From NCBI GenBank assembly GCA_023664385.1, contig JAMPFU010000029.1, forward strand, positions 1 through 40,556: a stretch of DNA of 40,556 nt, written 5' to 3'. Numbering within the stretch: position 1 is the stretch's first letter; each line of letters begins with the position of its first letter. Below the pieces are notes generated by a model. It made no database searches, was not told the DNA's origin, and saw only the letters and a list, made by a program, of their open reading frames with translations. Source of the DNA: Clostridium sp. GTDB lineage: Bacteria > Bacillota > Clostridia > Lachnospirales > Lachnospiraceae. The position numbers and the translations under genes were made by a program. Positions 16,649-40,556 of the stretch are shown here, in pieces.

Positions 16649-18163
16649 ATGCGAAAAAAGTTATTTGCAACTATAATAACTTGTGTTTTTTTATTTAGTT
16701 CATTAGGTGACGGTTCTGTCAGTGCAATGGAACTGATGACGGACACGGATGCTACAATAGATCTGATGACAGAGACTGATGCGGCTGCAATTGATGATGA
16801 TTTTACGGGCGAAACAGACGGTTGCGTTGAAAGTGATATAGATGAGGTATTGGAAGACGAACTTAATGTTTATGCAAGTTATTCTACAATATCATCAGAT
16901 GAGGCATACGACAGAATGATTGCCATAATGCCACAATATCCTACAGGAATGACTTGGACGAATGCTAATTCCTATAAGTGGAATTGCGGATGGTCAGCGG
17001 CAGGCTGCATGGGATTTGCGCACTTGGTAAGTGATGCGGCTTTTGGAAATGCAGGATTTCGCACATTATATAAAAGTGATATTAGTGGTGATTGGTTTGA
17101 CGCTATAAGGGTTGGTGATGTTCTTAGGGTGCCATATGATGAACATTCGGTTACTGTGCTGCAGATATATGATGATTATGTAGTTGTTGCAGAGGGAAAT
17201 GCCAGCGGAAAGGTTAGATGGGGCAGGACAATCTCAAAGGATACTATTAATAGTGAATGTTCATATATTGAAACGAGATATGCGGCAGATGCCCAAACAA
17301 TAACGATTAGCCCAGAGACGGGATACCGTCCGTGGATGGCGGATGTTGGACCAAGGTGTTTTGACATGGAAATTGGTGATACGTACAAATTTTCAGCAAC
17401 GATAACACCGAAAAATAGTAATGCAACTATTCAGTGGACATCCAGTAATCCGGATGTGGCAGAGGTTTCCCAAGACGGAACGATAACTGGAAAGTATGTA
17501 GGAAAAACAGTCATAACAGCGACATACATAGAAGCAGGTGTGTCTTCTTCTTATGAGGTTAATGTTATGCTGCCATACTCTGTTCCAACTGGAATTTTTC
17601 TTCTGAAAAATGATCATACGGGATATATAGCAGGCATTACCACCACGAATGTATCACCAAAATTTGAAGTGGAATACAGTTGGTATGCCAAGAGGGAATA
17701 TGAGGAAAATGAGGAGTGTATATCTGATTGGACGTACGATAATGAATGGCTGAATTGGACGCCTGAGAAATATGGAAATTATACCTTGATTGGAAAAACG
17801 AGGGTAGATGGTGACGATGAAACCATAGAGGAAGTAAGAACAGATATAAGCTACAGCCCTTACATTAAAGGAAAATGTCAGATGCCTTATACGGGAGAGG
17901 GTGGAGGATACCTTATTGGCTTTGAAACGTATGATAATCCTGGTCAAAAATACAGATACGAGGTTTTAATTCTTGATTGTACATTGCTGGCGGAGGGAAA
18001 GGATGCATGGATATATACGACTACACAATGCGGTGTGGAAGAAGGAAATGCATTTTGGACAATATGGCAGCCTAAGTATGGCTACTATTGGACACTTTTC
18101 AGATTGTTTGATGAAGACGGCAATTTAATAGATGAGCAATGCTATGGTTTTCAAAACATATAA
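16649..18163 (+). CDS. Secreted papain-fold hydrolase with Ig-like domain and shared C-terminal module
   Basis: Encodes 504 residues; the ATG at 16649 follows AAAAAAGGAG. Order: signal peptide (1-26, VSA-ME); an acidic Thr/Asp/Glu segment (MTDTDAT, MTETDAA; 27-75); a papain-fold domain (about 78-212) with Cys120, His166 and Asn184, close to the protein at 15867; a bacterial Ig-like Big_2 domain (about 216-306, WTSSNPDVAEVSQDGTITGK); and the shared C-terminal module (about 310-504). The module reads NEWLNWTPEKYGNYTLIGK in its first half and KGKCQMPYTGEGGGYLIG, LDCTLLAEGKDAWIYTT and WQPKYGYYWTLFRLFD in its second, ending in CYGFQNI. The wzm gene starts 22 bases later, so it is probably co-transcribed with the glycan exporter. 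Confidence 0.8.
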   Translation: MRKKLFATIITCVFLFSSLGDGSVSAMELMTDTDATIDLMTETDAAAIDDDFTGETDGCVESDIDEVLEDELNVYASYSTISSDEAYDRMIAIMPQYPTGMTWTNANSYKWNCGWSAAGCMGFAHLVSDAAFGNAGFRTLYKSDISGDWFDAIRVGDVLRVPYDEHSVTVLQIYDDYVVVAEGNASGKVRWGRTISKDTINSECSYIETRYAADAQTITISPETGYRPWMADVGPRCFDMEIGDTYKFSATITPKNSNATIQWTSSNPDVAEVSQDGTITGKYVGKTVITATYIEAGVSSSYEVNVMLPYSVPTGIFLLKNDHTGYIAGITTTNVSPKFEVEYSWYAKREYEENEECISDWTYDNEWLNWTPEKYGNYTLIGKTRVDGDDETIEEVRTDISYSPYIKGKCQMPYTGEGGGYLIGFETYDNPGQKYRYEVLILDCTLLAEGKDAWIYTTTQCGVEEGNAFWTIWQPKYGYYWTLFRLFDEDGNLIDEQCYGFQNI

Positions 18164-18185
18164 GTAGAAAGTGAGTATTTTTTAA

Positions 18186-19013
18186 ATGAGCAAGAAAAAA
18201 ACTCTGCTTAATATGGAGGTTATAAAGGATACAGGTAAAAATCTGATTTATGATAGAAAACTGATACTGAATTTGGCTAAAAATGATTTTAAAACAAAAT
18301 ATGCAGGGTCATATTTTGGGATATTTTGGGCATTTGTGCAGCCGATTATATTGATGCTTGTATACTGGTTTGCACTTGACATCGGACTAAGATCCGGGGA
18401 TATGCTTGATTATCCGTTTGTGCTGTGGTTGATGTGTGGACTTGTACCTTGGTTTTTCTTTGCAGACGCATTTGGTTCAGGAGCCAATGCTCTTACAGAA
18501 TATAGCTATCTCGTAAAAAAAGTTGTATTTAAAATTGATATTCTGCCAATAGTAAAGGTAACATCTTCAATATTTGTGCATTTGATATTTGTCGTGCTTA
18601 CTATAATACTGCATGCGTTCTATGGCTTCTATCCTGATTTATATACATTTCAGGTGCTATATTATATTATATGCATGTTTGCGCTTTTAATTGCACTTGC
18701 ATATATTACAAGCTCCATTATAATCTTCTTTAAGGATTTGAATCAGGTCATATCTATCATATTGCAGGTTGGAATATGGGCTACGCCTATTATGTGGAAT
18801 GCGGTAAATATATCTCCTAAATTAAATACTGTGATGAAGATTAATCCGATATATTACATTGTAAATGGATTTAGAGACACTTTTTTAGACAAAATTTGGT
18901 TTTGGGAAAGACCGAGGTGGACGATCGGCTATTGGATTGGAGTTTTTATTTTGTATGTAGTGGGAAGAAATATATTTAAAAGATTACAGGTTCATTTTGC
19001 AGATGTTTTATAA
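18186..19013 (+). CDS. wzm: ABC-2 type polysaccharide exporter permease
   Basis: A 275-residue integral membrane protein with six hydrophobic segments, including WAFVQPIILMLVYWFALDIG, WLMCGLVPWFFFADAF, FVVLTIILHAFYGF and ILQVGIWATPIMW. The N-terminal cytoplasmic stretch LAKNDFKTKYAGSYFGIFWA is the typical start of Wzm/TagG permeases, which move completed undecaprenyl-linked O-antigen-like glycans or teichoic acids across the membrane. Its ATPase partner is encoded two genes downstream (19889). The start ATG has a weak AAAGTGAG site. Confidence 0.92.
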   Translation: MSKKKTLLNMEVIKDTGKNLIYDRKLILNLAKNDFKTKYAGSYFGIFWAFVQPIILMLVYWFALDIGLRSGDMLDYPFVLWLMCGLVPWFFFADAFGSGANALTEYSYLVKKVVFKIDILPIVKVTSSIFVHLIFVVLTIILHAFYGFYPDLYTFQVLYYIICMFALLIALAYITSSIIIFFKDLNQVISIILQVGIWATPIMWNAVNISPKLNTVMKINPIYYIVNGFRDTFLDKIWFWERPRWTIGYWIGVFILYVVGRNIFKRLQVHFADVL

Positions 19014-19033
19014 ATAATGAAAGGAAATTGATA

Positions 19034-19864
19034 ATGAATATTTTAGTGACTGGAGCAAATGGATATATTGGAAGACATGTTGTGGAAACTTTATTGGATA
19101 TGGGACATCAGGTTAGTGTATCAGATATATGTTATGACGATGTGGACAAAAGGGCGATAAAATATGATGTTGAGCTTTTTGGAGGAGATGTGGACATATA
19201 TCAAAAGTTTGGCTGTCCGGATGTGTGCATACATTTGGCATGGAGAAACGGATTTGTCCACAATGATTTAAGTCACATAAATGATTTGCCCAAGCACTAT
19301 GAATTTATAAAAAATATGATAGATGGCGGATTACAGCATATCGTAGTTATGAGCACAATGCATGAGGTCGGATATTGGGAAGGCGCCATTGATGAAAATA
19401 CGCCATGTAATCCAAGCTCTCTTTATGCTGTGGCTAAAAATACCTTGAGGCAGCTTACATTTCTTCTTGCCAAAGAAAAGGATATATGCTGTCAGTGGAT
19501 AAGGGGATATTATATTATAGGCGATGATCTGAAAAATAATTCAATTTTCTCTAAGCTTGTTCTTGCGGAAAAAGATGGGAAAAAAGAATTTCCGTTTACA
19601 ACAGGCAAAAATAAATATGATTTTATAAGCGTAAATGAGCTTGCACAGCAGATTGCCGCAGTATCTTTGCAAACTGAGATTGATGGGATTATAAATTGCT
19701 GTTCGGGCGTACCTATATCGCTTGCCGATAAAGTTGAAGGATTTATAAAGGATAATAATTTTAACATAAAGTTAAAATATGGTGTGTTTCCTGATAGGGC
19801 ATATGATTCGCCTGCTGTATGGGGAGATGCAGAAAAGATAAAAAAAATCATGTTACAGAAATGA
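19034..19864 (+). CDS. NAD-dependent epimerase/dehydratase (extended SDR)
   Basis: Encodes 276 residues from the ATG at 19034 (AAAGGA upstream; an in-frame TTG at 19028 is less likely). The N-terminal dinucleotide-binding motif is MNILVTGANGYIGRHV. The catalytic pair is Tyr and Lys in SSLYAVAKNTLRQ, after VVMSTMHEVGYWEG. This is the architecture of nucleotide-sugar epimerases, dehydratases and 4-reductases such as those making deoxysugars, so it probably makes or finishes a sugar nucleotide for the exported glycan. The exact reaction cannot be read from the sequence. It sits between the two ABC exporter genes. Confidence 0.85.
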   Translation: MNILVTGANGYIGRHVVETLLDMGHQVSVSDICYDDVDKRAIKYDVELFGGDVDIYQKFGCPDVCIHLAWRNGFVHNDLSHINDLPKHYEFIKNMIDGGLQHIVVMSTMHEVGYWEGAIDENTPCNPSSLYAVAKNTLRQLTFLLAKEKDICCQWIRGYYIIGDDLKNNSIFSKLVLAEKDGKKEFPFTTGKNKYDFISVNELAQQIAAVSLQTEIDGIINCCSGVPISLADKVEGFIKDNNFNIKLKYGVFPDRAYDSPAVWGDAEKIKKIMLQK

Positions 19865-19888
19865 ACCGTGAAAACTGGGGGATAAAAC

Positions 19889-21169
19889 ATGAGTGATATA
19901 GCTATAAGTGTTGACAAAGTAAGTAAGCTATACAAGCTATACGACAAGCCTTCCGACAGATTAAAGGAGACGTTGGGATTCACAAAAGAAAAAAAATACA
20001 GAGAGCATTTTGCACTTTCTGATGTAAGCTTTCATGTTAAGAAAGGTCAAACAGTAGGAATAATAGGTACGAACGGGTCGGGGAAATCGACTGTTTTGAA
20101 AATTATTACCGGAGTACTCAATCCGACATCAGGGAAAGTGGATATATCAGGAAGAATATCTGCTTTGTTAGAACTGGGAGCAGGATTCAATATGGAGTAT
20201 ACCGGAATAGAAAACATATATCTTAACGGTACAATGATGGGCTATTCAAAAGAAGAAGTGGATGAAAAGCTACAGACAATTTTGGATTTTGCTGATATAG
20301 GTGATTTTGTAAAGCAACCGGTAAAAACATATTCAAGTGGTATGTTTGTTCGGCTTGCTTTTGCTGTGGCAATTAACATTGATCCTGAGATTCTTATAGT
20401 TGATGAAGCACTGTCCGTGGGAGATGTATTTTTTCAGGCGAAATGCTATCATAAGTTTACCGAATTCAAAAATGCGGGGAAAACCATATTGTTTGTAAGT
20501 CATGACCTTGGAAGCATTGCAAAATATTGTGACAAGGTCATATTACTTAACAAGGGAATAAAGATGGCTGAGGGTGATCCTAAAGAGGTAATAGATTTGT
20601 ATAAGCAGGTACTGGTTAGCAATGCTGAAAACCGGGACTTGGATGAAACAGGCACTGCAATCAACGAAGAACAGCAGCTGACTGAGGATGGAGCGGTATG
20701 GAAGGAAAGTCTGATGCAAAATCCGAATGCACTTGAGTATGGGAACAAATATGCACAAATTATTGATTTTGCAATTATAGATGATAAGGGGAGAATAACA
20801 AACAACATTCAAAAAAATACAGAATTTAAAATAAGAATGAAGGTTAAATTTAATCGCGATATTGAAGAACCCATTTTTGCATTTACAATAAAAGATTTGC
20901 AGGGAACAGACGTTACAGGCACCAATACAATGTATGAGCTTTTGAATTTCGGCTTGGTTAAACGTGACGAGGTAAAGGTCATAGAGTTTTCACAAAACAT
21001 GAATTTGCAGGGAAAAAATTACCTTTTATCTTTTGGATGCGTGGGCTATGAAAATAATGATTTTGTCGTATATAACAGACTGTATGATGTGTGTAATATT
21101 AATGTCATTTCTGATAAAAATACTGTGGGTTTTTATGATATGAATTCATCGGTAAAGGTTCTTTGTTAA
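19889..21169 (+). CDS. wzt: ABC exporter ATPase with C-terminal glycan-recognition-type extension
   Basis: Encodes 426 residues. The ATPase part (1-245) has GIIGTNGSGKST (Walker A, 57-68), YSSGM (signature, 148-152), ILIVDEA (Walker B, 168-174) and the H-loop His205 in FVSHDLGSIAKYCD, all of the Wzt/TagH subclass. A ~150-residue beta-rich extension (about 275-426; FAFTIKDLQGTDVTGTNTMY, GKNYLLSFGCVGYEN) matches the Wzt C-terminal domain, which in O-antigen systems binds the capped end of the glycan before export. The methyltransferase next door could make that cap. With wzm at 18186 it forms the exporter. Confidence 0.93.
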   Translation: MSDIAISVDKVSKLYKLYDKPSDRLKETLGFTKEKKYREHFALSDVSFHVKKGQTVGIIGTNGSGKSTVLKIITGVLNPTSGKVDISGRISALLELGAGFNMEYTGIENIYLNGTMMGYSKEEVDEKLQTILDFADIGDFVKQPVKTYSSGMFVRLAFAVAINIDPEILIVDEALSVGDVFFQAKCYHKFTEFKNAGKTILFVSHDLGSIAKYCDKVILLNKGIKMAEGDPKEVIDLYKQVLVSNAENRDLDETGTAINEEQQLTEDGAVWKESLMQNPNALEYGNKYAQIIDFAIIDDKGRITNNIQKNTEFKIRMKVKFNRDIEEPIFAFTIKDLQGTDVTGTNTMYELLNFGLVKRDEVKVIEFSQNMNLQGKNYLLSFGCVGYENNDFVVYNRLYDVCNINVISDKNTVGFYDMNSSVKVLC

Positions 21170-21187
21170 TATGTGGAGGAATTTGGT

Positions 21188-22111
21188 TTGAAAAACAATA
21201 CTGAATATGTAGGCAAAGTGATGCTTGATTATGGGTTCTACGGAGGAACAGACCTATATGTTGATGGCTCTGAAGAGGAGCTTTTAGATATAGTAAAACA
21301 GTATGACAATAATGAATATAATAGGGTTATTGCTGAGAAAAAAAAGTGGCCCATATTATATCATTTATCAAATTTGCGGGGGAATATAGTTGACTGTATT
21401 CCTTTTACGAAAAATGATAAAGTTTTGGAAATTGGTGCAGGCTGTGGTGCGATTACGGGTACTATTGCAAAAAAGGCAGGAAAAGTTGACTGTATCGAGT
21501 TATCGAGGATAAGAAGCCTTATAAATGCAGAAAGAAATAAGCACATGGACAATATTGTCATAACAGTGGGGAATTTTCAGGACATTGAAAGAAAAATTAC
21601 GGAAAAATATGATTATATAACATTGATAGGTGTGTTGGAATACGCAGGTAAATATATAGCTTCAGACAATCCGTATGAAGATTTCATACTAATGCTTAAA
21701 AATCATCTCAATGAGAATGGTAAAATCGTTTTAGCCATTGAGAATAAATATGGACTTAAATATTGGGCAGGCTGCCGGGAAGATCATTTGGGTACTTTTT
21801 TTTCAGGGATAGAAGGATATGTTGATATTGATGATGTAAGGACATTTTCTAAAAACGAACTGCAAAAAATCTTTATTGACTGTGGGTTCAATGACGTTAT
21901 GTTTTATTATCCTTATCCTGATTATAAATTTCCGGTAACAATATATTCTGACAGTTATCTGCCTAAAATAGGAGGCTTATCAAATAATATGAATAATTTT
22001 GACAGTGACAGAATGATGCTGTTTGATGAGATGAAAGTATATGATAACCTGATTGCTGACGGAATGTTTGATTTTTTTTCAAATTCCTTTATGGTAATCG
22101 CAGGTCCTTAG
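21188..22111 (+). CDS. SAM-dependent methyltransferase
   Basis: Encodes 307 residues from a TTG at 21188, placed 7 bases after GGAGGA (21175-21180); the GTG at 21173 overlaps that site. Class I methyltransferase motifs are visible: VLEIGAGCGAITGTIAKKAG (SAM-binding loop), KVDCIELSRIR (acidic residue binding the ribose) and YDYITLIGVLEYAG. In Wzm/Wzt systems such enzymes often cap the non-reducing end of the glycan, which both stops growth and marks it for export. The acceptor here is unknown; capping is inferred from the neighbouring Wzt with a C-terminal extension. Confidence 0.8.
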   Translation: MKNNTEYVGKVMLDYGFYGGTDLYVDGSEEELLDIVKQYDNNEYNRVIAEKKKWPILYHLSNLRGNIVDCIPFTKNDKVLEIGAGCGAITGTIAKKAGKVDCIELSRIRSLINAERNKHMDNIVITVGNFQDIERKITEKYDYITLIGVLEYAGKYIASDNPYEDFILMLKNHLNENGKIVLAIENKYGLKYWAGCREDHLGTFFSGIEGYVDIDDVRTFSKNELQKIFIDCGFNDVMFYYPYPDYKFPVTIYSDSYLPKIGGLSNNMNNFDSDRMMLFDEMKVYDNLIADGMFDFFSNSFMVIAGP

Positions 22112-22147
22112 CATAAGATGCCGTGACATCCGAATAAGAGGTGCAAT

Positions 22148-23524
22148 ATGCAAAAAATTATTTTTACAAAATATTCTAATGACAGAAACCCTGATTATAA
22201 TATAAAAACGAGCATAATGGAAGATGGGAAAGGAAACAGATATGTTTATAAGACTGGTGTCTCCGATGGTGGAAAAAAGCATATCAGGAACATGTATGAA
22301 AATTCACGTAAGCTTCAGGAAGTGTTTTCTGACTCAATATTTGAAATAAATAAAAGCGAAATGAAGGATGACAACCTTTTGCTGGAGTATGTGTATGGTG
22401 AAACGCTGGAAGAAACATTAGATAGATATCTTGCGTCAAAGAATTACGACGCATTTACTGCTCTGATAAAAAAATATGCATATGAGATGAGAAAAAATGC
22501 TGTGAACAAATTTGTTCCATGTGAGGAATATTACAAGGTGTTTGGTAAGACTGCGGTTGATACGGCAAATTGTGGGGCAATGCTGCCTTGCGATATTGAT
22601 CTGATTTTTCCTAATATTATTGATGCTGACGGAAAATGGACGATTCTTGATTACGAATGGGTATTTAACTTCACCATTCCCGTTGATTTTGTGTTGTTCA
22701 GGGCAATTTATTATTATGATTTTCCGTGTAGGGCAAAATTGCTGGATGGTATTAATCTTTGGAAATTGTTGGAAATTGATGAGAAACTATATGATGTTTA
22801 TAAAGCTATGGATGATGAATTCCAAAAATATGTTTTTAATGGAAATATACCCTTGTGGGAGCTTTATAGTAAATTCGGCAAGAAAGTCCATTTTAGAGGG
22901 GGACTGCCGATGGAAAATGTGAAATATAAAATAGAATGTATTAGATTTTATGAGGACCATTATGTATCAGAATATATTGATATATTTCCTGATGAGAACG
23001 GAAAGGTAGCGGTTTATATAGATGTGGATAAAAATATCCAAACGCTTGCAGTAGATCCTGCAAGCTGCAGTTGCATTGTACATGTTGATAAGGCCTTGGG
23101 GATTGCAGATGATGAATATGAAATATTATATGGCAATAACGGAGAATCGACAGACAATAAAACAATATACTTTAACCATGACGATCCGAGGTTTTTGTTT
23201 GATGATTTTCATTCAAACATAAAACAGATATATTTTGAATTTCATATAAATTATATTGATAATGAAAGTAGCGACCATATATGTAAAATGATTGATGATT
23301 TTAATGCTATAAGATACAGTAATTTAACGAAAGATTCATTGATTGCGGAACAGTCAGAAAATATGAAAATACTTCGACAGGAACTTGCGGAGCAGTCACA
23401 AAAAATTGTAGAACAGTCAGAAAACGTGAAGGCACTCCAACAGGAACTTGAAAATATAAAAAATTCAACAAGTTGGAAAATAACTGAACCTATGAGGAAT
23501 ATAACAAAAAAAATAAGGAGATAG
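22148..23524 (+). CDS. Kinase-fold-like glycan cluster protein with C-terminal coiled coil
   Basis: Encodes 458 residues, no signal peptide. The N-terminal half resembles the kinase-like domains seen in large methyltransferase/glycosyltransferase proteins of surface-glycan clusters: a beta-rich start with KGNRYVYKTGVSDGGKKHI (a possible phosphate-binding lysine), then DIDLIFPNII and TILDYEWVFNFTIPVDFVLF, which look like divergent catalytic-loop and DFG-type motifs. A beta-rich middle part follows. The end is a coiled coil (about 400-440, repeats of EQSEN and LQQEL) with SWKITEPMRNITKKIRR, a tail common on glycosyltransferases. The function is unknown; a scaffold or chain-length partner is possible. 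The next gene starts 2 bases after the stop. Confidence 0.6.
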   Translation: MQKIIFTKYSNDRNPDYNIKTSIMEDGKGNRYVYKTGVSDGGKKHIRNMYENSRKLQEVFSDSIFEINKSEMKDDNLLLEYVYGETLEETLDRYLASKNYDAFTALIKKYAYEMRKNAVNKFVPCEEYYKVFGKTAVDTANCGAMLPCDIDLIFPNIIDADGKWTILDYEWVFNFTIPVDFVLFRAIYYYDFPCRAKLLDGINLWKLLEIDEKLYDVYKAMDDEFQKYVFNGNIPLWELYSKFGKKVHFRGGLPMENVKYKIECIRFYEDHYVSEYIDIFPDENGKVAVYIDVDKNIQTLAVDPASCSCIVHVDKALGIADDEYEILYGNNGESTDNKTIYFNHDDPRFLFDDFHSNIKQIYFEFHINYIDNESSDHICKMIDDFNAIRYSNLTKDSLIAEQSENMKILRQELAEQSQKIVEQSENVKALQQELENIKNSTSWKITEPMRNITKKIRR

Positions 23525-23526
23525 TT

Positions 23527-25425
23527 ATGGTTTTAGGCAATGATTCAAGCAGGCTGCTTATATATTTTTTCTATGATAAAAATGGAATAGTGGATGATTA
23601 TATCCCGTATGTCCTGACAGATATGCAAAAGAATGTGTCGGATATATTTGTGGTGTGTAATGGAGCGCTTGTGGATGAGGGAAAAGCAAAATTTCAAAGG
23701 TTCACGGATGATATTTTAGTGCGTGAAAATAAAGGCTTTGATGTGTGGGCTTATAAGGAGGCCATGGAAAAGCTTGGATGGGAGAAACTTGGGAATTATG
23801 ATGAAGTTATACTGATGAATTACACAATTGCGGGACCTGTATATCCTTTTGCGGATATGTTTCATTCAATGAATGGTAAGGATCTTGATTTTTGGGGAAT
23901 TACACAATTTTACAGAACAGAGGATGATCCCTTTGGGACAATGCCCGACGGATTTATACCTGACCATATACAGTCCCATTTTATAGCGGTGAGAAAAAAT
24001 ATGTTGAATTCAGAGGCGTTTCATAATTATTGGGATGAAATGCCTATGATTACAGGATATCTTGATTCTGTGACACGGCATGAAGCGAGATTTACAAAAT
24101 ATTTTGAAGAAGCTGGATTTAAGTGGGAAGTATATGTTGATGCGGAGGATTACAGGGATTTATCCCATCAGCCTGTAATAGGAATGGCAACAAAAGTTTT
24201 GGAAGAAAAAAAATGTCCGATATTTAAAAGACGTTCTTTTATGCAGGATTATAATGTTGTGCTTAATGAGTCATGCGGTCAGGAAGCAATGTTGCTCTAT
24301 AAGTATTTAGAGGAAAAAACTGATTATAATGTGGATTTGATTATGGACAATCTTCTGCGTGTTGAAAATCTTGCTGATTTGAAAAAAAATTTTCAGTGGA
24401 ATTATGTCCTTTCCAGTAAAATTAGTGAGAATCCGAATGCTGCGGCGGAGAAAAAAATAGCGTTGGTAATGCATATTTATTTTGAAGAGTTGATTGACGA
24501 ATGTGCTTTATATGCATCAGCAATGCCTGATTCGGCTGATCTATATATCACCACAGATACGGAAAACAAAAAACAAAAAATTGAAGAAAAATTTTCAAAA
24601 TTAAAGTGTAACATGCTTAATATTACCGTTGTTCCGAATAAGGGGAGAGATGTTGCACCTTTTTTGGTAGGATTTAGAAAATATTTGGGACAGTATGATT
24701 ATGTGTGCCATGTTCATGATAAAAAGGCAGGGCAGACAAAACCTGGTACAATAGGCACGTCGTTTGCATATAAATGTTTTGAAAATGTCCTTGCTTCAAA
24801 GAAATATGTAGAGAATATTTTATCAACATTTGAACAAAACAAAAAATTGGGAATGCTTGTACCCCCACCTCCAAATCACGGAGATTATTATATAACATTA
24901 GGGCTTGAGTGGGGGAATAATTACGAAAATACGGTTAAGCTTGCCAAGGAACTTGGAATAAATGTATCTATGTCTCCGGAAAAGGAACCGATAGCAGGTT
25001 TGGGTTCATATTTTTGGGTAAGGAGTGAGGCTCTCAAACCGATATTTGACAAGGCATGGAGCTATGAGGATTTTCCTTCGGAACCGGTTGATGATGACGG
25101 AACCATCATGCATGCGATAGAGAGAATATATCCATTTGCAGTCCAAAGTATGGGATTTTATTCAGGCTGGGTTCTATCTGATATAGGGGCGGCATTGGAA
25201 ATTACTAACTTAAATCATATGTTAAAGGAGCTTAACAATATTATATTTTTTAAAGGACAGGATGCAGGTACGTATCATGAAACACGCATGAACCTATCAA
25301 GAGCTTACGATGTAGTAAATGGTGTGAGGCAGGGTGTATACATTCCTGCTAACAGAAAATTAGGTTTTTTACCTGATTCAATCAGAACCCCCATGGCTAA
25401 AGTATGGCATAAGGTGAAAAAATGA
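23527..25425 (+). CDS. RgpF-like rhamnan synthesis protein, two domains
   Basis: Encodes 632 residues. The second half (about 310-560) has clear RgpF-family (PF05045) features: KKIALVMHIYFEELIDECAL, VVPNKGRDVAPFLVGFRKYL, YDYVCHVHDKKAG and GSYFWVRSEALKPIFD. The first half (about 5-240) is related: a DDILVRENKGFDVWAYKEAM, VILMNYTIAGPVYPFADMFH and HFIAVRKNMLNSEAF set repeats the same order, so the protein is a tandem of two such domains. RgpF acts in the synthesis of rhamnose-containing cell-wall polysaccharides in streptococci. Here it likely builds or decorates the exported glycan in the cytoplasm. Confidence 0.85.
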   Translation: MVLGNDSSRLLIYFFYDKNGIVDDYIPYVLTDMQKNVSDIFVVCNGALVDEGKAKFQRFTDDILVRENKGFDVWAYKEAMEKLGWEKLGNYDEVILMNYTIAGPVYPFADMFHSMNGKDLDFWGITQFYRTEDDPFGTMPDGFIPDHIQSHFIAVRKNMLNSEAFHNYWDEMPMITGYLDSVTRHEARFTKYFEEAGFKWEVYVDAEDYRDLSHQPVIGMATKVLEEKKCPIFKRRSFMQDYNVVLNESCGQEAMLLYKYLEEKTDYNVDLIMDNLLRVENLADLKKNFQWNYVLSSKISENPNAAAEKKIALVMHIYFEELIDECALYASAMPDSADLYITTDTENKKQKIEEKFSKLKCNMLNITVVPNKGRDVAPFLVGFRKYLGQYDYVCHVHDKKAGQTKPGTIGTSFAYKCFENVLASKKYVENILSTFEQNKKLGMLVPPPPNHGDYYITLGLEWGNNYENTVKLAKELGINVSMSPEKEPIAGLGSYFWVRSEALKPIFDKAWSYEDFPSEPVDDDGTIMHAIERIYPFAVQSMGFYSGWVLSDIGAALEITNLNHMLKELNNIIFFKGQDAGTYHETRMNLSRAYDVVNGVRQGVYIPANRKLGFLPDSIRTPMAKVWHKVKK

Positions 25426-31357: not shown

Positions 31358-31377
31358 TTTAATCAGGGAGGGGTTAT

Positions 31378-33393
31378 ATGAAAAGAAAAATAGCAGTATG
31401 TCTTACAGCAATTATGATGCTTATGTCAATTAATGTTTATGAAGCTAAGGCGGCTGATATAGAGGCCAATTATGCTAAATTGCTACAGTATTCATTATAT
31501 TTTTATGATGCGAATATGTGTGGCGATGGTGTGGATGAGCACAGCATGCTGTCATGGAGAGGGGATTGCCATACGTTTGACAAAACTACATATACTAGAA
31601 GTGACGGAAGTACTGTGACGGTTGATTTGGCAGGCGGCTTTCATGATGCAGGAGACCATGTGAAATTTGGACTGCCTGAAGCGTATGCTGCATTTGTACT
31701 TGGAATGAGCTATGATACAAATAGGGAAGCATATGAGTATGCAGGACAGGTTGGACATCTTCAGACCATTACAACATATTTTGCAGATTACTTTGTGAAC
31801 TGTACTGTGCTGAGTAGTGATGGAAGTTATGTCGAGGCATTTTGCTGTCAGGTGGGACAAGGCGGCGGAGGATATGACCATGGCTATTGGGGGGCACCTG
31901 AAAACCAGATAAACGCAAATAGACCGATTTATTTTACAAGTGCGTCAGCGCCTTCTACGGATATTGTTTGTTTAAGTGCAGCGGCTTTGGTTATACAGTA
32001 TAAGAATTTTGGCGGAGAACAGTATCTTGACACTGCAAAAAAACTCTTTGATTATGCAAAAAGAAACAACAAGGCAGTTAATACAACTGCGAATGGATTT
32101 TATAATTCCACAGGCTGGGAAGATGATTATTGTTTGGCTGCTATTTTACTTTATCAGGTAACGTCAGATTCACAGTATCTTTCTGAATTTAATAATTACG
32201 CAGGAAGCAATAATGCTCAGAAGCCTTATTGGCCTTTGGGCTGGGATAATGTGGGACCGGCTGTTGCATATTATAATGGAAATTCAAATGCACTTTCAAC
32301 ACTGATGAATCAGTATAGTGGAAGAACGAATAGCGATGGCTTTTGTTGTATTGATAGTTGGGGTTCGGCAAGATATAACACATCTATGCAGTATACAGGA
32401 CTTTTGTATGACAGCATGACAGGAACAAATACAAATCTTACGTGGGCAGAAAATCAGATGAAATATCTGCTTGGAAATAACCCGAGAAATCAGTGTTACG
32501 TTGTAGGATATAATCAATACAGTGCAAAATATCCGCATCACAGGGCAGCTTCAGGATATACAGGCGGACCTCAAGGGACCAACACACAGGCAAATGTTTT
32601 GCTTGGTGCATTGGTAGGAGGACCGAAGCAGGGTGGGGAGTATACTGATTCGGCAAATGATTATCAATGTAATGAGGTTGCAATAGACTATAATGCAACG
32701 CTTGTTGCCGCAACTGCCGCACTTTATTACAGACATATAGGCGAATCGGATCAATATATTGATACAAATTATTATGTTGATGGTACAAGTGGCGGAGGAA
32801 CAGGTACGACACCTATTATTTCCCGGGGAATTTATGTTGCTGAAAATTCTCCGACGAGAATTTTAGCAGGTATGACTACAAAATACACGGATAAGTCAGG
32901 TCTGGAATACAGGTGGGTTGCCTGTAAACAGGAGGATGAAAAATGGTTTGAGGTATCAGGATGGATACAGGGGAATGAATGGCTTGACTGGTCGCCGGAT
33001 ACATACGGCAATATAATTCTTGTATGTCAGGTTAGGAAGGTTGGAGACGAGACATCAACAGTGGAGTCCGGTGTTGGAATACAGCATCACATTATCAAGG
33101 GAATATGCCAAATGCCGTATACAGGCGAGGGTGGCGGTTATCTTATTGGTGTGGAAACTTATAATAATCCAAACCAGTCATTTAGGTATGAATTGCTCAT
33201 ATTAGACTGTACTTTACTTGCTGAAGGTAAGGATGCATGGATATGGTCTACCGGACAGCATACTGTACCAGAGGCGGCTTTTTGGGCAGTATGGCAGCCA
33301 AAATATGGATATTATTGGACGCTTTTCAGAATATATGATGAAAAGGGAAATCTTATTGACGAGGAATGTTACGGATTTGTGAATGCATATTAA
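31378..33393 (+). CDS. Secreted GH9 endoglucanase with shared C-terminal module
   Basis: Encodes 671 residues; strong AGGGAGGGG site before the ATG. Signal peptide 1-26. A glycoside hydrolase family 9 catalytic domain (about 28-455) has DLAGGFHDAGDHVKFGLP with catalytic aspartates near 90 and 93, the substrate-binding FVYGYNQYSAKYPHH-like region (VVGYNQYSAKYPHHRAASGY) and the acid Glu433 in CNEVAIDYNATL. A Gly/Thr linker leads to the shared C-terminal module (about 478-671) instead of a known cellulose-binding module or dockerin. It should cut beta-1,4-glucan, either plant cellulose or a beta-glucan at the cell surface. Confidence 0.93.
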   Translation: MKRKIAVCLTAIMMLMSINVYEAKAADIEANYAKLLQYSLYFYDANMCGDGVDEHSMLSWRGDCHTFDKTTYTRSDGSTVTVDLAGGFHDAGDHVKFGLPEAYAAFVLGMSYDTNREAYEYAGQVGHLQTITTYFADYFVNCTVLSSDGSYVEAFCCQVGQGGGGYDHGYWGAPENQINANRPIYFTSASAPSTDIVCLSAAALVIQYKNFGGEQYLDTAKKLFDYAKRNNKAVNTTANGFYNSTGWEDDYCLAAILLYQVTSDSQYLSEFNNYAGSNNAQKPYWPLGWDNVGPAVAYYNGNSNALSTLMNQYSGRTNSDGFCCIDSWGSARYNTSMQYTGLLYDSMTGTNTNLTWAENQMKYLLGNNPRNQCYVVGYNQYSAKYPHHRAASGYTGGPQGTNTQANVLLGALVGGPKQGGEYTDSANDYQCNEVAIDYNATLVAATAALYYRHIGESDQYIDTNYYVDGTSGGGTGTTPIISRGIYVAENSPTRILAGMTTKYTDKSGLEYRWVACKQEDEKWFEVSGWIQGNEWLDWSPDTYGNIILVCQVRKVGDETSTVESGVGIQHHIIKGICQMPYTGEGGGYLIGVETYNNPNQSFRYELLILDCTLLAEGKDAWIWSTGQHTVPEAAFWAVWQPKYGYYWTLFRIYDEKGNLIDEECYGFVNAY

Positions 33394-33407
33394 GATAGCA
33401 TAAAAAT

Positions 33408-33457
33408 AAAAGCCTTTTGAATGGACAAAAATATTTTGTTGTTCAAAAGGCTTTTTA
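33408..33457 (+). terminator. Terminator after the GH9 gene (copy 1 of a duplicated cassette)
   Basis: AAAAGCCTTTTGAA (33408-33421) pairs with TTCAAAAGGCTTTT (33442-33455), with an inner AT-rich stem and a T-run. An almost identical structure follows the next gene at 36246-36303. Confidence 0.9.
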
Positions 33458-33486
33458 TTTACAGAAAAAGCAAAAAAAGTTATAAT
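33458..33486 (+). promoter_or_regulatory. Promoter of the 900-residue surface protein (cassette copy 1)
   Basis: TTTACA (33458-33463), 17 bases, TATAAT (33481-33486), starting directly in the tail of the terminator. The same layout recurs at 36303-36331. Confidence 0.8.
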
Positions 33487-33528
33487 ATTGGTATTGGTTT
33501 TATAAAATGCAGGATGGGGGTAAAAAAT

Positions 33529-36231
33529 ATGAAAAGAATAATATCAATGATTGTGATTGCAACAATGATTCTTGGACTTGCACCATGCAGTGTAAGAGCT
33601 GAGGAAACTACAGAGGAACAGATGCTGGCTGAAACCGAAGCTGTGGCTACAAATACAGATACATATATCATTGATGCAGTTGATGTAAATGCGGACACAG
33701 ATGATGAAGAAGTTATATACGATGACGTTTGGAAAGATGAAATTACGGCTGTATATGAAGGGGACTTAGATGGAGAAATTCCGGCAGGATATTATGCTGA
33801 ATTTGAAGAAGAATTAACGGAAAATAATGAGCTTTTGGAAGATGAACTGACAGTCGGGGCATCAGGGGAAAACAATATTGTTCATGTGGAGAATTATACT
33901 TATGAGATAATCCCACTTCTGCCTCCGTATAATGACTATTTCTATGTTAAAACGGACAATCCTGATCCGAGATATGTCAGATTTGTAGATAAGGAAAGTG
34001 TTTATTATACGGCGGAAGATTATGACAGAAAGTATGGTCCTTGTGCAATAAGACCTTCCGGGGTACGTTTTTCAGATGTTGTATATGAAGACTATGAAAC
34101 CGGCAGGGTAAAGGGTGGTTATATATTTGTAAGACATCATGGATATAATATGGACGGAGGCAGCCTTGTACTGCAGCAGGGGGACAGACCATATTACCGC
34201 AAACAGATATCATCCAATAGTTATTCTGAGACTGTTCCCATATATACAGATACTAAGATTACGGTAAACTGTCCGCCAGTAAAATCATCAATACAGTATT
34301 TAATTGATACTTATACATCTCCAACTGCTGATTTGTTTACTAATTTAGATAGTGTGCAAGGTGCTTTAAATAGTCTGTCATTATACCCAAAGGGTGTGTT
34401 GGATACTTCGAAACCGAATGAATCCAGACCATATCCGTTGCTTGCCGTTTCACCGTATTATGAGCTTGGCTTGAATGCACATTATGATATGTATGAAACC
34501 GGCGATTCTTTGCTGGCATTGGCTGTTCATCCATATGTTCTCCATTCCCTGACATTTCCGGGAACGATGGGGGCTGTTGCCGAGACACTTGAACCGGACT
34601 GTACAGTTGATTCGGGCTCTGTACATTATATGGTAACAGTTGAGTATAATGGTGAAAAACATAGTTATGGAGGAGCGGGCAGTGGTTCAACAGCCGATAT
34701 ATACAGTAGCTGTGTAGAAAAATTATACAAATTTGACGGTTCTGCTGATGATTTTGCCTACAATGCATCGATAGAAAAAATAAGTGAAAAATATTTTGAA
34801 TATCAGACAGCTACAAGTACGGCTATGTCAAAATACATTTCCCAAATTAAGGGTGATGAATTTGATGCCAAAACAAATGGTGGAACATGGCTTCGTGTTG
34901 GGGCTGAGGGATCTTCTATATATGGAAGGACTTATGCTTATGTAACCTCCTATGGACCTGATTGTGGCAGCTTCAGCATTGAAAATACATGGGTGGATGG
35001 AAGATATGTAAGTATATATAACTGTTATACAGATGCATTTGAATTTGGTGACACATATGAATATGGAAAGGACGGAATAATAGACACATCCAAAAGCAAC
35101 ATACTTATAAGGAATATGACGTTTGTGGACAATTCGGGAGCAACAGTTACAAGGGATGTTTACTATAGATATGACAGTGATACGGATACTTGGCGGGCTC
35201 CGAATTCTTATGTAGGACGTAATTGGTATTATTCGAATATGGTGTTGCCGGATTCTATGATTCTGACACGTGATGAAGTCAATCAGATGGTTGCCAGTGG
35301 TGAAATTGGCGGAAAAGTTGACATGCATCCGGCAAGTGGTTTGATTTATGATGGAACGGCTGAACCGGGGACACCGTTTCAGTTAAGTGTCAATTGTCAA
35401 CGGTCATTGCACAAGTTTGCTGAAGAAAAAAATCCATCGAAAAAATTTCTTTATTCTGAGGCAACATGTACGGAACCTGCAAAATATCGGAAAGTATGCA
35501 GTGAGTGCGGAGTATCTACAAACGAATATTATACATACGGAACGGCAAAGGGACATGAAAGTAAACGCACCTTTGTTGGAAGTCAATATTGGGAGGAACG
35601 ATGCAGTGTTTGTAATAAATTGCTTTCTGAGGGAACAATGCAGTTGCCGACAGCAAATGGTGTATATGTAACAAAGATGGACAGAACAGGTATTACGGCA
35701 GGACTTGTAACTCTTGAAAATGATAAATCGCAGTATGAGTATAGCTGGTATGCGTGCAAGGGCTCAACAGGGGATTGGTTTGAGATACAGGGCTGGAAAG
35801 AAGGCTATGAGTGGATTAACTGGACGCCTAAAGAATACGGAGATTATATTATTGTTGGCAAGGTAAGAATAAAGGGTGATGACAGCACAGTTGATACCGG
35901 CTACATAAACATAAGCTACCATCCGCAAATAAAAGGGAAATGCCAAATGCCATACACTGGTGAAGGCGGCGGCTATCTTATAGGTGTGGAGAGCTATGAA
36001 AATCCAAACCAGTCGTATCAATATGAAATGCTTGTGCTTGATTGTACTTTGCTTGCTGAGGGTAAAGATGCATGGATATATACAACAGGAAAATGCCCTG
36101 TTGCAAGCGGAAACGCATTGTGGACGGTATGGCAGCCAAAATATGGATATTATTGGACCTTATTCCGCATTTATGATAAAGATGGAAACCTGTTAGATGA
36201 GGAATGTTATGGGTTTGTGAATGCGTATTAA
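33529..36231 (+). CDS. Large secreted protein of unknown function with shared C-terminal module
   Basis: Encodes 900 residues from the ATG at 33529 (GGATGGGGGT just upstream); the frame stays open back to 33421 through the terminator and promoter, which is not coding. Signal peptide 1-25, then an acidic Thr/Glu/Asp-rich stretch (EETTEEQMLAETEAVATNTD). The centre (about 110-640) is beta-rich and matches no family I recognise. A cysteine-rich stretch (about 640-705) has CTEPAKYRKVCSECG and ERCSVCNK, a zinc-ribbon-like pattern. The shared C-terminal module fills about 707-900 and ends CYGFVNAY. It is monocistronic, bounded by its own promoter and terminator. Adhesin or structural surface protein is a guess. 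Confidence 0.75.
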   Translation: MKRIISMIVIATMILGLAPCSVRAEETTEEQMLAETEAVATNTDTYIIDAVDVNADTDDEEVIYDDVWKDEITAVYEGDLDGEIPAGYYAEFEEELTENNELLEDELTVGASGENNIVHVENYTYEIIPLLPPYNDYFYVKTDNPDPRYVRFVDKESVYYTAEDYDRKYGPCAIRPSGVRFSDVVYEDYETGRVKGGYIFVRHHGYNMDGGSLVLQQGDRPYYRKQISSNSYSETVPIYTDTKITVNCPPVKSSIQYLIDTYTSPTADLFTNLDSVQGALNSLSLYPKGVLDTSKPNESRPYPLLAVSPYYELGLNAHYDMYETGDSLLALAVHPYVLHSLTFPGTMGAVAETLEPDCTVDSGSVHYMVTVEYNGEKHSYGGAGSGSTADIYSSCVEKLYKFDGSADDFAYNASIEKISEKYFEYQTATSTAMSKYISQIKGDEFDAKTNGGTWLRVGAEGSSIYGRTYAYVTSYGPDCGSFSIENTWVDGRYVSIYNCYTDAFEFGDTYEYGKDGIIDTSKSNILIRNMTFVDNSGATVTRDVYYRYDSDTDTWRAPNSYVGRNWYYSNMVLPDSMILTRDEVNQMVASGEIGGKVDMHPASGLIYDGTAEPGTPFQLSVNCQRSLHKFAEEKNPSKKFLYSEATCTEPAKYRKVCSECGVSTNEYYTYGTAKGHESKRTFVGSQYWEERCSVCNKLLSEGTMQLPTANGVYVTKMDRTGITAGLVTLENDKSQYEYSWYACKGSTGDWFEIQGWKEGYEWINWTPKEYGDYIIVGKVRIKGDDSTVDTGYINISYHPQIKGKCQMPYTGEGGGYLIGVESYENPNQSYQYEMLVLDCTLLAEGKDAWIYTTGKCPVASGNALWTVWQPKYGYYWTLFRIYDKDGNLLDEECYGFVNAY

Positions 36232-36245
36232 GTTAGTATAAAAAG

Positions 36246-36303
36246 AAAAGCCTTTTGAATGGACAAAAAATATTTTGTTGTTGTTGTTCGAAAGGCTTTT
36301 TGT
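36246..36303 (+). terminator. Terminator (copy 2 of the duplicated cassette)
   Basis: AAAAGCCTTTTGAA (36246-36259) pairs with TTCGAAAGGCTTTT (36287-36300), with one wobble pair and an expanded GTT repeat (GTTGTTGTTGTT) in the loop compared with copy 1. Confidence 0.88.
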
Positions 36304-36331
36304 TTACAGAAAACGTAAAAAAAGATATAAT
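36303..36331 (+). promoter_or_regulatory. Promoter of the acyltransferase-CAP genes (cassette copy 2)
   Basis: TTTACA (36303-36308), 17 bases, TATAAT (36326-36331), same layout as copy 1. Confidence 0.8.
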
Positions 36332-36367
36332 ATATATTAGTTTTATAAAATACGATAAGGTGGAAAT

Positions 36368-37375: not shown

Positions 37376-37422
37376 TTAATATATAATTTATTTGCAAAAA
37401 ATATAGGAAGGAGTGGTATTGG

Positions 37423-38718
37423 ATGAGAAAAAATTTAAAAAAGAGGGTATGTGCGCTTACTGTAGGGGCAATGCTTGGATTTGGACTTTTTAATCCGGTT
37501 TTCCTGAAACCTGGAGTAAGGGCTGCAGGACAGGACAGTACGGAAACCGAAGAATGGGAGGTTACGACTACTAAGAGTGAGACTTCCACTGAGCAAAATA
37601 TCGGTGAGGCAGCAGATAGGGAACATGAAGAAAATCCAGAGCTCTTTGTTGATGAAACAGAGCTTGCAGGCGTAGGAACACAGGCTGTATCGGGGACAAA
37701 GGATTATGCACAGGCGTATGAGGTGCTTGGAATTGTAAATCAAAGAAGAGCAGAGGAAGGTCTGTCTCCGCTTGTGATGGACAGAAGGTTGACAGAGGCA
37801 GCCATGACAAGGGCGGCAGAAATTGTTGTTAGCTTCAGCCATACGAGACCATGTGGTTTAGATTGCTTTTCTGTTTCACAGAGTGCATATGGTGAAAATA
37901 TAGCATATGGCTATCAATCTTCGGCTGCTGTTATGAACGCATGGATGAATTCAACAGGACATAGAAATAATATTATGAAACCCGGATATGAATCAGTCGG
38001 AATAGGATGCTTTTATCACAATGGAGTATATTACTGGGTACAGCTTTTTGGCTATGATGCTATTGAGACATCTGGTATTCCTGAAAATAAAAATGTCACA
38101 ATAGACGTTGTTGTTGATGCAGCAAACTATGAGCTTAAAGCGAATGACATAATTGTTATGGAAAGCGACCCGAGATATGGTTTTATCATGTTTTTGCAGA
38201 CAAATGCCGTTGATACGGAAAGTATGGAATATAGTTGGTATGCAAGCAATAATAATGGGGAAACTTGGATGACGCTCTCCGATTGGGAAAAGGGCGCAGA
38301 TGGTATTATAGCTATCCCTTCCCAATATGGGGATTATGTAATTGTTGGAAAAGCAAGAAAAGCTGGTGATAATTCTACAGTAGTGCAGTATGCAACAACC
38401 TATGGTTATCATCCTGCCATAAAAGGAATTTGTCAGATGCCATATACCGGTGAAGGTGGAGGCTACCTGATAGGAATTGAAAGCTACGACAATCCTAATC
38501 ATGCTTACCGCTATGAAATGCTTATTCTTGACTGTACCCTTCTTGCACAGGGAAAGGATGCATGGATCTATACGACAGGACAATGTTATGCTCCGGACAC
38601 GTGTCTTTGGACAATTTGGCAGCCGCTATATGGATATTATTGGACATTGTTCCGCATATATGACGAAAATGGTAAATTAATTGACGAGCAGTGCTTCGGC
38701 TTTGAAAATATATGCTGA
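37423..38718 (+). CDS. Secreted CAP-domain protein with shared C-terminal module
   Basis: Encodes 431 residues; GGAAGGAG before the ATG. N-terminal signal peptide (residues 1-28, ending VRAAG), then an acidic linker. A classical CAP/SCP domain (PF00188, about 100-210) has VLGIVNQRRAEEGLSPLVMD, FSHTRP, YGENIAYGYQSSAAVMNAWM and STGHRNNIMKPGYESVGIGC with the conserved histidines. The shared C-terminal module fills about 235-431 and ends in CFGFENIC, the only complete copy with an extra terminal cysteine. CAP proteins bind lipids or glycans or act in wall biology; the specific role is unknown. Confidence 0.9.
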   Translation: MRKNLKKRVCALTVGAMLGFGLFNPVFLKPGVRAAGQDSTETEEWEVTTTKSETSTEQNIGEAADREHEENPELFVDETELAGVGTQAVSGTKDYAQAYEVLGIVNQRRAEEGLSPLVMDRRLTEAAMTRAAEIVVSFSHTRPCGLDCFSVSQSAYGENIAYGYQSSAAVMNAWMNSTGHRNNIMKPGYESVGIGCFYHNGVYYWVQLFGYDAIETSGIPENKNVTIDVVVDAANYELKANDIIVMESDPRYGFIMFLQTNAVDTESMEYSWYASNNNGETWMTLSDWEKGADGIIAIPSQYGDYVIVGKARKAGDNSTVVQYATTYGYHPAIKGICQMPYTGEGGGYLIGIESYDNPNHAYRYEMLILDCTLLAQGKDAWIYTTGQCYAPDTCLWTIWQPLYGYYWTLFRIYDENGKLIDEQCFGFENIC

Positions 38719-38744
38719 CGATTCTATAAGAGGGGGAAGGCGAT

Positions 38745-40556
38745 ATGAGAACAAGGTTTATTTCAATGGGGCTGACAATTGTTATGTCAATAGGTATATT
38801 TGGTATGAATGTCAATGCAGAAGAAATGACTGTATTGGAGCAGACACCTACTGATGCTTATGAGGAGGAGTTTGAAGACTGTGAGGCAGATGTAATTGTT
38901 TATGATTTGAATCAGATGGATACGTTCAAAAACAGAACGCTTGAACAAATTGCAGATAAGTATTGGGAGGCTCAAAATGCCGGTTCTTCATATGTAAGTA
39001 ATGAGAGTGCAACATACTATAAGGTTAAACCTTCGTTTGAAGCCCCATATGAGCCGGGGGTTCTGCATGAGGATACTCTTGCGGTAATGACTGGAATGAC
39101 AAATTTTTATCGCTGGCTTGTTGGGGTCAAACCAGTTACATCGTATAACGATGCAGAGCTTCAGGCAGGTGCATTTGTGAGGAATTTCAGCCCCGGACAT
39201 ACGGTGGATAATTCCCAAAAACCTGCTGATATGTCAGATGAGCTATGGAATATGGGGGCTGACGCCTCTCATAGCATTTTGGCTTATGGGACTACACCGT
39301 ATGGAGCAATTTACGCATGGATGAATGAAGGTTATTCTTTAAGGAAAAAAGAATGGGATTGGGGTTGGAACTCAATCGCTCATAGAACTGCAATTATATC
39401 GGAGCGGCATTCGAAAATTGGCTTTGGTTATTCCGACGGTGTTAGTATAGGTTGTGTGTTAGCTGCAAAAAATGATAACTCTTATGAGGGATTTGCGGCA
39501 TACCCATGTCCGGGGGCTATGCCTAATGATTTGATACGACCGAGTACGGCTGCATGGAGTTTTGAGTATGGCAGTTCTAATGTTTCTGTTTCTGATGAAA
39601 GTAAAGTAGAGATTAGAATTACTAATTTGGATACAGGAAAGACATGGATAAGAAATAAGTATACAGAACCGCTTGATGCAGATAATGACATGCAATTTTA
39701 TTCGGGGTATATGTGTTTTGTGCAACCCGATGATTACAATAAGGAAAACAATCGATATGAGAGCTCATATGAGGTTGTTATTTCAGGAATGAAGGATTGG
39801 ACTACCGGCAAGGAAGCACAAATTAAGTATCGTGTGGATTTTATGGATGTAAAAGTGTATGGCGCATCGGAGGTTACTGGTATGGCCATGCCTTACAGCA
39901 GCTATATAATAAACGATGAAAGTGCGCTCGGTCAGGAGCACACATTGAAAAAGCTGCAGACTACACTTCCTAAGGAGGTTGTTTTTGAAGTTGAAAATGG
40001 CTGTACATATAAGGTCCCTGTTAGTGGTGAATGGGTATTGGATGAAGCAAATCAATGTTGGACAAATAGTGTAGATGAGTCGAGCCTGCCAAACAGAATT
40101 ACAGATCCAAATGGTGTCCTAAAAAAAATATCATTTAATTATACATTCTCAATCCACCCAACTTGGTTGGGCATTGCAGATAGGAATCCGTATGTGGGGA
40201 CATCAGGAACGATGACTGCAAGTTTATTCCGAGATGCAAATCATAGCAAAATATTTCAAATAAAGCAGAATGAATACGGACAGCATAATGCAATAGAACG
40301 TTGTGATTCGGATACGTACGCAGATTTAAAGAAAGAGACAGGATATGGTGGCATTACGCATTACTATACGTTTAAATCATTTGAAAAAAGTGATACCGGA
40401 GAATATGTAGGTGTTTTTTATAATGATAAGGTAAAGAATGGTGCTGCGTATGTTCCCTTTGGCACAATTAATTTAAATGTAACTGTAGAAGGTGCATCGC
40501 CGAATGCGACGGGTATATACACCGCAAAAAGCGACTACACGGGAGAAACGCTCGGA
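38745..40556 (+). CDS. Secreted divergent CAP-like protein, cut by window end
   Basis: Open from the ATG at 38745 (AGGGGGAAGG upstream) to the last base, 604 codons without stop. Signal peptide 1-25 (ending VNA-EE), acidic linker, then a divergent CAP-like domain (about 60-265): TNFYRWLVGVKPVTSYNDAE, ASHSILAYGTTPYGAIYAWM, then IAHRTAIISERHSKIGFGYS, which keeps the paired-histidine pattern. A beta-rich middle follows. The last visible residues, NATGIYTAKSDYTGETLG, match the opening of the shared C-terminal module in neighbours (NGVYVTKMDRTGITAG), so the module very likely continues past the window. It is 26 bases after the CAP gene and probably co-transcribed. Confidence 0.8.
   Translation, partial: MRTRFISMGLTIVMSIGIFGMNVNAEEMTVLEQTPTDAYEEEFEDCEADVIVYDLNQMDTFKNRTLEQIADKYWEAQNAGSSYVSNESATYYKVKPSFEAPYEPGVLHEDTLAVMTGMTNFYRWLVGVKPVTSYNDAELQAGAFVRNFSPGHTVDNSQKPADMSDELWNMGADASHSILAYGTTPYGAIYAWMNEGYSLRKKEWDWGWNSIAHRTAIISERHSKIGFGYSDGVSIGCVLAAKNDNSYEGFAAYPCPGAMPNDLIRPSTAAWSFEYGSSNVSVSDESKVEIRITNLDTGKTWIRNKYTEPLDADNDMQFYSGYMCFVQPDDYNKENNRYESSYEVVISGMKDWTTGKEAQIKYRVDFMDVKVYGASEVTGMAMPYSSYIINDESALGQEHTLKKLQTTLPKEVVFEVENGCTYKVPVSGEWVLDEANQCWTNSVDESSLPNRITDPNGVLKKISFNYTFSIHPTWLGIADRNPYVGTSGTMTASLFRDANHSKIFQIKQNEYGQHNAIERCDSDTYADLKKETGYGGITHYYTFKSFEKSDTGEYVGVFYNDKVKNGAAYVPFGTINLNVTVEGASPNATGIYTAKSDYTGETLG

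Follow-up and report, generated by a model that had tools for sequence, protein, structure and literature searches.

Why should secreted proteins with unrelated N-terminal parts all end in the same sequence? The window analyzed here, the whole 40,556-base contig C21 in the 3.17-Mb, 80-contig genome of a gut-type Lachnospiraceae bacterium, encodes five proteins that are closed by a module of ~193 residues and a sixth that enters the module at the contig end (Table 1). This was how the locus had originally been described, and we located five complete C-terminal copies together with the motifs named at that time, including the single Thr-to-Ile change (in the 25495 protein) and C-YGF or C-FGF. 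The papain fold assigned to the N terminus of the 16649 protein was not recovered: Pfam gives no papain family there. The sixth protein, whose CAP domain scores 28.1 bits in Pfam, ends in ...ATGIYTAKSDYTGETLG, ~17 residues into the module as read by eye. A profile search matched the last 32 module positions at the very end of contig C33 of the same genome; the two contigs may flank a single break. Contig C45 carries one further complete copy. When the five window copies and the C45 copy were aligned, the other rows were 54-59% identical to the first. The window copies score E values of 5.9e-102 to 1.0e-105 against a profile that includes them, whereas the full-length copies of congeners, which lie outside the profile, reach E values of 6e-64 to 1.6e-105; partial matches are weaker.

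Table 1. Module copies and polysaccharide-locus genes in the 40,556-base window
Feature	Position	Second half	Strand	Carrier and evidence
Module copy 1	17585..18160	17861-18160	+	C terminus of 16649 protein; alignment, profile
ABC-2 type exporter permease	18186..19013		+	PF01061
NAD-dependent epimerase/dehydratase	19028..19864		+	PF01370
ABC transporter ATPase with Wzt C-terminal domain	19889..21169		+	PF00005, PF14524
Methyltransferase	21173..22111		+	PF08242
Polysaccharide-locus protein without known family	22148..23524		+	Order kept in congeners
RgpF, rhamnan synthesis protein F family	23527..25425		+	PF05045, E 9.2e-201; co-occurrence
Module copy 2	27010..27588	27283-27588	+	C terminus of 25495 transglutaminase-like protein; alignment, profile, Pfam
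Amidase plus glucosaminidase, six GBS_Bsp-like repeats, without module	27701..31357		+	Pfam
Module copy 3	32818..33390	33091-33390	+	C terminus of 31378 GH9 protein; alignment, profile, Pfam
Module copy 4	35650..36228	35926-36228	+	C terminus of 33529 protein, cargo without family; alignment, profile, predicted structure
Module copy 5	38137..38715	38416-38715	+	C terminus of 37423 CAP protein; alignment, profile, Pfam
Sixth module, start only	40506..40556		+	38745 CAP-like protein, cut at contig end; read by eye

Most of the conservation of the module sits in its second half. Over the ten pairs of window copies, this half is 77% identical in amino acids, and 98 of its 265 fourfold sites agree; the corresponding values for the first half are 34% and 43 of 126. 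Silent sites of the window copies are thus near saturation, and their divergence rules out gene conversion as the source of the conserved second half. We conclude that the second half is under strong purifying selection.

The module is predicted to form two tandem FN3-like domains (pLDDT 95.7), a beta sandwich that places it among fibronectin type III-like folds. The nearest folds found are FN3 pairs, and its invariant positions are rich in Trp and Tyr. The PDB matches listed include no FN3-type wall anchor. The two halves have a W-P-YG-Y stretch and their kind of fold in common. Profile comparison did not demonstrate homology between them (hhalign probability 4.8%), and the pattern of common Cys residues was too weak to claim a disulfide pairing.

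Does the module belong to a named family? It had been thought to belong to none, and this stands for the second half, CQMPYTGEGGGYLIG; the first half shows weak resemblances. Pfam, NCBIfam and PDB sequence searches with the second half returned chance-level matches only: none of 57 second halves matched Y_Y_Y (PF07495), and the four Pfam families listed were at chance level (best E 0.012). PDB sequence searches with the module gave two chance-level matches each (best E 0.068 and 0.12), and comparison of the window proteins and modules with Pfam, NCBIfam and PHROGs again left the second half without a named family. The first half, judged from its sequence, appears to be a weak relative of the Y_Y_Y or triple-tyrosine repeats. 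PF07495 was matched by 18 of 52 whole modules at E<=1 (best 1e-5) and by 6 of 10 first halves alone, with a best score of 21.8 bits and all under the 26.6-bit gathering score; NF010681 was matched by 30 of the 52 at E<=0.1 (best 6.8e-6). Pfam at E<=1 listed no CWB1, CWB2, SLH, LysM, ChW or SH3 domain in the five complete window carriers and the 52 modules, and PF07538 (ChW) had no match across the whole window genome. Hence, the profile searches put the module in no characterized binding or anchoring family tested by Pfam, and the stated absence of SLH and CWB2 was borne out. In the open-licence literature, we found the core motif in no paper and no paper that joins the Y_Y_Y domain, the cell wall and Lachnospiraceae; a search there for the triple tyrosine motif and the cell surface gave nothing related (one unrelated virus paper).

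We then asked where the module sits in the proteins that carry it. The window and the fetched loci contain 94 distinct ORFs that match the module profile (containment removed, close orthologues kept apart). The second half is present in 86 of these. A locus or contig end truncates 11 of the 86, and the other 75 are the uncut carriers. The module is C-terminal in 68 of the 75. C-terminal domains serve as sorting tags in type 9 secretion, and this placement, like the extreme conservation of one half, would suit a tag recognized by specialized machinery for export or covalent attachment. However, the module is N-terminal or internal in the other seven (L050, L066, L072, L095, L055, L054 and L092; the N-terminal side of L092 may be incomplete because it starts near a contig end). 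In L050, it precedes a cargo that shares 38% identity over 527 columns (E 2e-91) with that of the 33529 protein of the window, in which the module follows the cargo. These exceptions disfavor a terminal sorting tag, and we regard a dedicated sorting role as improbable. No LPXTG signature had been noticed in the window proteins; a relaxed pattern for such a motif found it in the last 60 residues of none of the 75.

A signal-peptide-like N terminus was found in 66 of the 75 uncut carriers, compared to 39% of 544 other ORFs scored with the same simple heuristic, many of which are spurious; a first version of the heuristic gave 64 of 75. Six of the nine misses are fragments, contain Ns or lack a start region, and the remaining three (L093, L055 and L059) look signal-peptide-like by eye. 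The carriers are therefore not mostly unsecreted, and the idea of surface display stands.

Perhaps the module is an ordinary carbohydrate-binding module that tethers enzymes to extracellular glycans of plants or the host? The FN3-like fold and the many invariant Trp and Tyr residues are compatible with this, as is the GH9 domain found in 9 of 85 scanned carriers. The remaining cargo speaks against it. The scan covered 67 plus 18 carriers, with close orthologues counted apart and L097 left out because of Ns, and at E<=1e-3 Pfam also identified CAP (9), Transglut_core (7), LRR_5 (7), YkuD (3), NLPC_P60 (3) and DUF5722 (3). Thus, the cargo kinds include L,D-transpeptidase, NlpC/P60, CAP and leucine-rich-repeat proteins, which act on or sit at the cell's own surface. 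Nor would binding to foreign glycans give any reason for the link to RgpF described below, and we consider it unlikely. Endolysins often use wall-binding modules. A tblastn search with one module (E<=0.01) found no phage or plasmid protein that carries it, and a search of viral contigs with two peptide patterns only found no relative.

What, then, might the module bind at the cell's own surface? In the window, module genes flank a cluster that runs from an ABC permease, which we take to be RgpC/Wzm-like, through an epimerase, a Wzt_C ATPase, a methyltransferase and a protein without known family to RgpF. The same order adjoins module genes in four congeners (G003, G025, G015 and G029; in G015, the methyltransferase and the protein without known family read as one ORF). 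From the RgpF family name only, the polymer of this locus probably contains rhamnose. The open-licence literature held no paper joining RgpF, rhamnan and Lachnospiraceae and none joining the GBS Bsp-like repeat and rhamnose. The amidase encoded inside the locus bears no module, an observation that counts against an anchor.

To relate the module to this locus, we compared their distributions. The module has a match in 12 of 37 genomes of the genus, with up to 27 matches in one genome. RgpF is present in 10 of the 37 (G000, G001, G003, G007, G010, G015, G020, G024, G025 and G029), and all ten are among the 12 (Fisher 1.9e-7, kinship ignored). The two others have one module ORF each and no RgpF: in G030 (97% complete), the ORF is a broken remnant that follows an LRR ORF in another reading frame, and G033 is an incomplete bin (71% complete). 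Kinship was addressed with an rpoB tree that covers 26 of the 37 genomes; 11 with no or partial rpoB were dropped, among them 4 of the 12 module genomes (G001, G010, G024 and G033). On this tree, the module is not clustered and needs 7 changes, and RgpF needs 6. Among seven independent pairs of genomes that differ in the module, RgpF differs in the same way in six, in the opposite way in none and not at all in one (sign test, p 0.031, with one gene and the fewest pairs able to reach 0.05). With the roles exchanged, there are 6 pairs (p 0.031-0.0625).

In wider samples, the full module was found in 2 of 397 genomes of the family (G000 and G165; up to 8 candidates were scored in each genome), and the second half was found in 1 of 391 genomes of the class, the window's own (up to 12 candidates were scored in each genome). 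Matches in twelve more family genomes were weaker; most of them concern the first half, and they often form tandem arrays. In G193, L103 and L114 represent diverged forms with two domains. RgpF occurs in 47 of the 397 family genomes, often without the module: it is present in 8 of 14 genomes with a module match at E<=1e-3 versus 39 of 383 without one. With a module-like match at E<1e-6, a cut chosen after the data were seen, it is present in 8 of 8. In G062, G113 and G306, genes of first-half-like repeats lie ~4 to 25 kb from RgpF on one contig.

Since module and polysaccharide gene come and go together among relatives, the module probably grips the cell's own wall polysaccharide. Two other explanations had to be weighed. 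FN3 pairs are commonly protein-binding units, and the module might instead bind a different protein at the surface, such as a scaffold or an S-layer protein, in the manner of cohesin and dockerin. Yet the gene found to track it is a polysaccharide gene, and we give this possibility little weight. Alternatively, RgpF and module genes could ride one mobile locus, so that their co-occurrence would carry no functional message. Both traits change several times on the tree. The ten RgpF genomes together contain 75 counted copies with the second half, of which 32 are no more than 25 kb away from RgpF, perhaps more across contig breaks. However, 1 copy lies farther away on the RgpF contig and 42 lie on other contigs; because contigs are broken, these 43 of 75 are an upper limit for unlinked copies. 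Matched by position, copies at G025:C5, G007:C11 and G007:C13 sit deep inside long contigs, and in G001, 18 of 19 counted copies are on contigs other than that of RgpF. All of these would need to be gained and lost along with the locus, and mere hitchhiking is hence doubtful.

The GH9 protein allowed us to follow one cargo between genomes with and without RgpF. Of the 37 members of the genus, 21 encode a close GH9 (66% identity or more); more distant GH9-like sequences (25-38%), which occur in these genomes and in others, were set aside. The close GH9 carries the module in nine genomes, all of them RgpF positive, and every RgpF-positive genome with a close GH9 (9/9) has a module-bearing one; G007 also encodes a second GH9, which lacks the module. 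In RgpF-negative genomes with a readable GH9 tail, the tail is another one in 10 of 10. It consists of YGMKEGR repeats in G004 and G019, is fn3-like in G021 and G036, and lies in an ORF with ChW repeats in G005, G008 and G016 by Pfam and in G002, G011 and G014 by a rough pattern. Some of these alternative tails are cut by the locus end, and those of G035 and G032 are unreadable. In G019, the GH9 locus contains Wzt-like (67%), permease-like (58%) and methyltransferase-like (51%) genes with no RgpF match, and its amidase also has YGMKEGR repeats. Because GH9 is the sole Pfam domain of the G019 protein, its YGMKEGR repeat has no family name there. G004 likewise has YGMKEGR tails on GH9 and amidase; the 31 kb fetched contain no Wzt match. 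Surroundings of GH9 were fetched for eight genomes with ChW, fn3-like or unreadable tails (G002, G005, G008, G011, G014, G021, G035 and G036); there, GH9 has other genes as neighbors and no such locus, with ATPase matches of 25-30% only. Mutual exclusion of module and ChW was also considered and was not significant: of the 12 module genomes, 3 are ChW rich, with at least 18 matches each (Fisher p 0.31), and tree pairs were uninformative.

Taken together, these data suggest that the module is probably a non-covalent surface anchor whose second domain binds the wall polysaccharide of the neighboring RgpC/D/F-type locus, in the manner of CWB2 with PSII or of CBM37. That the module binds at all, that the polymer of the locus is its ligand and what the chemistry of this polymer is are points that we infer. 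The locus would make and export the polysaccharide; secreted proteins would carry the module as two tandem FN3-like domains, the second of which would bind this polymer; and the bound module would keep diverse enzymes and adhesins on the cell. Of the two roles originally proposed, sorting or anchoring, the second gains strong, if indirect, support from the secretion signals, the surface cargo, the GH9 tail exchange and the linkage and co-occurrence with RgpF; terminal sorting is disfavored by the seven carriers with the module elsewhere. More tentatively, wall polysaccharide type and protein anchor may switch as a matched set in this genus, with resident enzymes such as GH9 being re-tailed. 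Each polymer locus would then bring its own lectin-like tail: an RgpF-type polymer would go with the FN3 pair and another ABC-exported polymer with YGMKEGR repeats, with ChW in others.

If the module is such an anchor, a family with an FN3-like fold would join the few non-covalent domains that bind the wall, its likely ligand locus would be named, and there would be a system in which polymer and anchor can be seen to change together between close species. The module would also allow the surface proteome of these Lachnospiraceae to be predicted and offers a display tag.

How does the module compare with known systems? Its first half is weakly related to Y_Y_Y (PF07495) and NF010681, a relationship that its second half does not have. 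ChW repeats (PF07538) are described in a 2018 review as predicted clostridial surface anchors with ligand unknown (PMC5817068); they likewise occur on the GH9 ORF of some congeners but form another sequence family. CBM37 of Ruminococcus albus is reported to attach enzymes to the cell's own wall carbohydrate, and in that account it is found in no other sequenced genome and the orthologues of its enzymes in a sister species carry dockerins (PMC4081043). Like CBM37 as described there, the module is lineage restricted, present in many copies and borne by enzymes whose sister-species orthologues have another attachment module; unlike it in that description, the module is linked to a wall-polymer locus, and the two are likened by description, not by sequence (PMC4081043). 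In Clostridioides difficile, CWB2 is described as binding PSII, and wall-protein genes adjoin the proposed polymer locus (PMC4973711). CWB2 is a repeat of ~90 residues that occurs mostly in threes, according to the same 2018 review (PMC5817068), whereas the module is one FN3-like pair with no CWB2 match by Pfam. The proposed arrangement is nevertheless like that reported for CWB2 and PSII: a common non-covalent anchor on many unrelated secreted proteins, with genes beside a polymer locus (PMC4973711).

The window's own contig (C21) and another contig of the same genome (C33) each end within the module: C21 breaks off in a module start and C33 in a module end (see table). Further along C33 lie genes for glycosyltransferases, a DegT aminotransferase, a pyruvyl transferase and a flippase-like protein, and the window locus may therefore continue on that contig. 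Within the polysaccharide locus itself, the window also encodes an amidase and glucosaminidase protein carrying six GBS_Bsp-like repeats, possibly a second kind of wall-targeting repeat adjoining the module.

Immediately upstream of the 16649 protein, which bears the first module copy at its C-terminus, is a secreted protein that lacks the module. It is homologous, at 50% identity, to its downstream neighbour's N-terminal part. That part had been predicted to be a papain-fold hydrolase, a reading that the Pfam scan did not bear out: neither protein gave a papain match.

C33 encodes a protein (L009) with an internal domain resembling the first half only; the full module is absent. By eye it resembles a DUF5722 protein (L101), and similar ORFs are present in G020, G003 and G029. 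Two proteins of another genus (L103 and L114, G193) have a diverged two-domain form, L103 reading ITGRCALP where the module has IKGICQMP; G193 also has RgpF, of the rhamnan synthesis protein F family. In RgpF-less G030, the sole module ORF (L022) follows a leucine-rich-repeat-like ORF in a different reading frame and looks like a decayed gene.

Coordinates of the features discussed
Feature	Location	Coordinates
Module start at contig end	Window (C21)	40506-40556
Module end at contig end	C33	163995-164090
Amidase and glucosaminidase with repeats	Window	27701-31357
Secreted protein without module	Window	15852-16508
First-half-like domain protein	C33, L009	17594-19906
GH9 with repeat tail, G019	L122	514-2967
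Carrier of repeat tail, G004/G019	L195	13774-19725
Carrier of repeat tail, G004/G019	L196	1-2148
Carrier of repeat tail, G004/G019	L198	3958-7209

The GH9 and amidase proteins of G004 and G019 share a tail of 'NPDVKNAFG...HFINYGMKEGRQA' repeats that is distinct from the module. A scan of one GH9 protein bearing this tail found no Pfam match to it. We consider the tail a second candidate anchor family, whose counterpart may be a different ABC-exported polymer.
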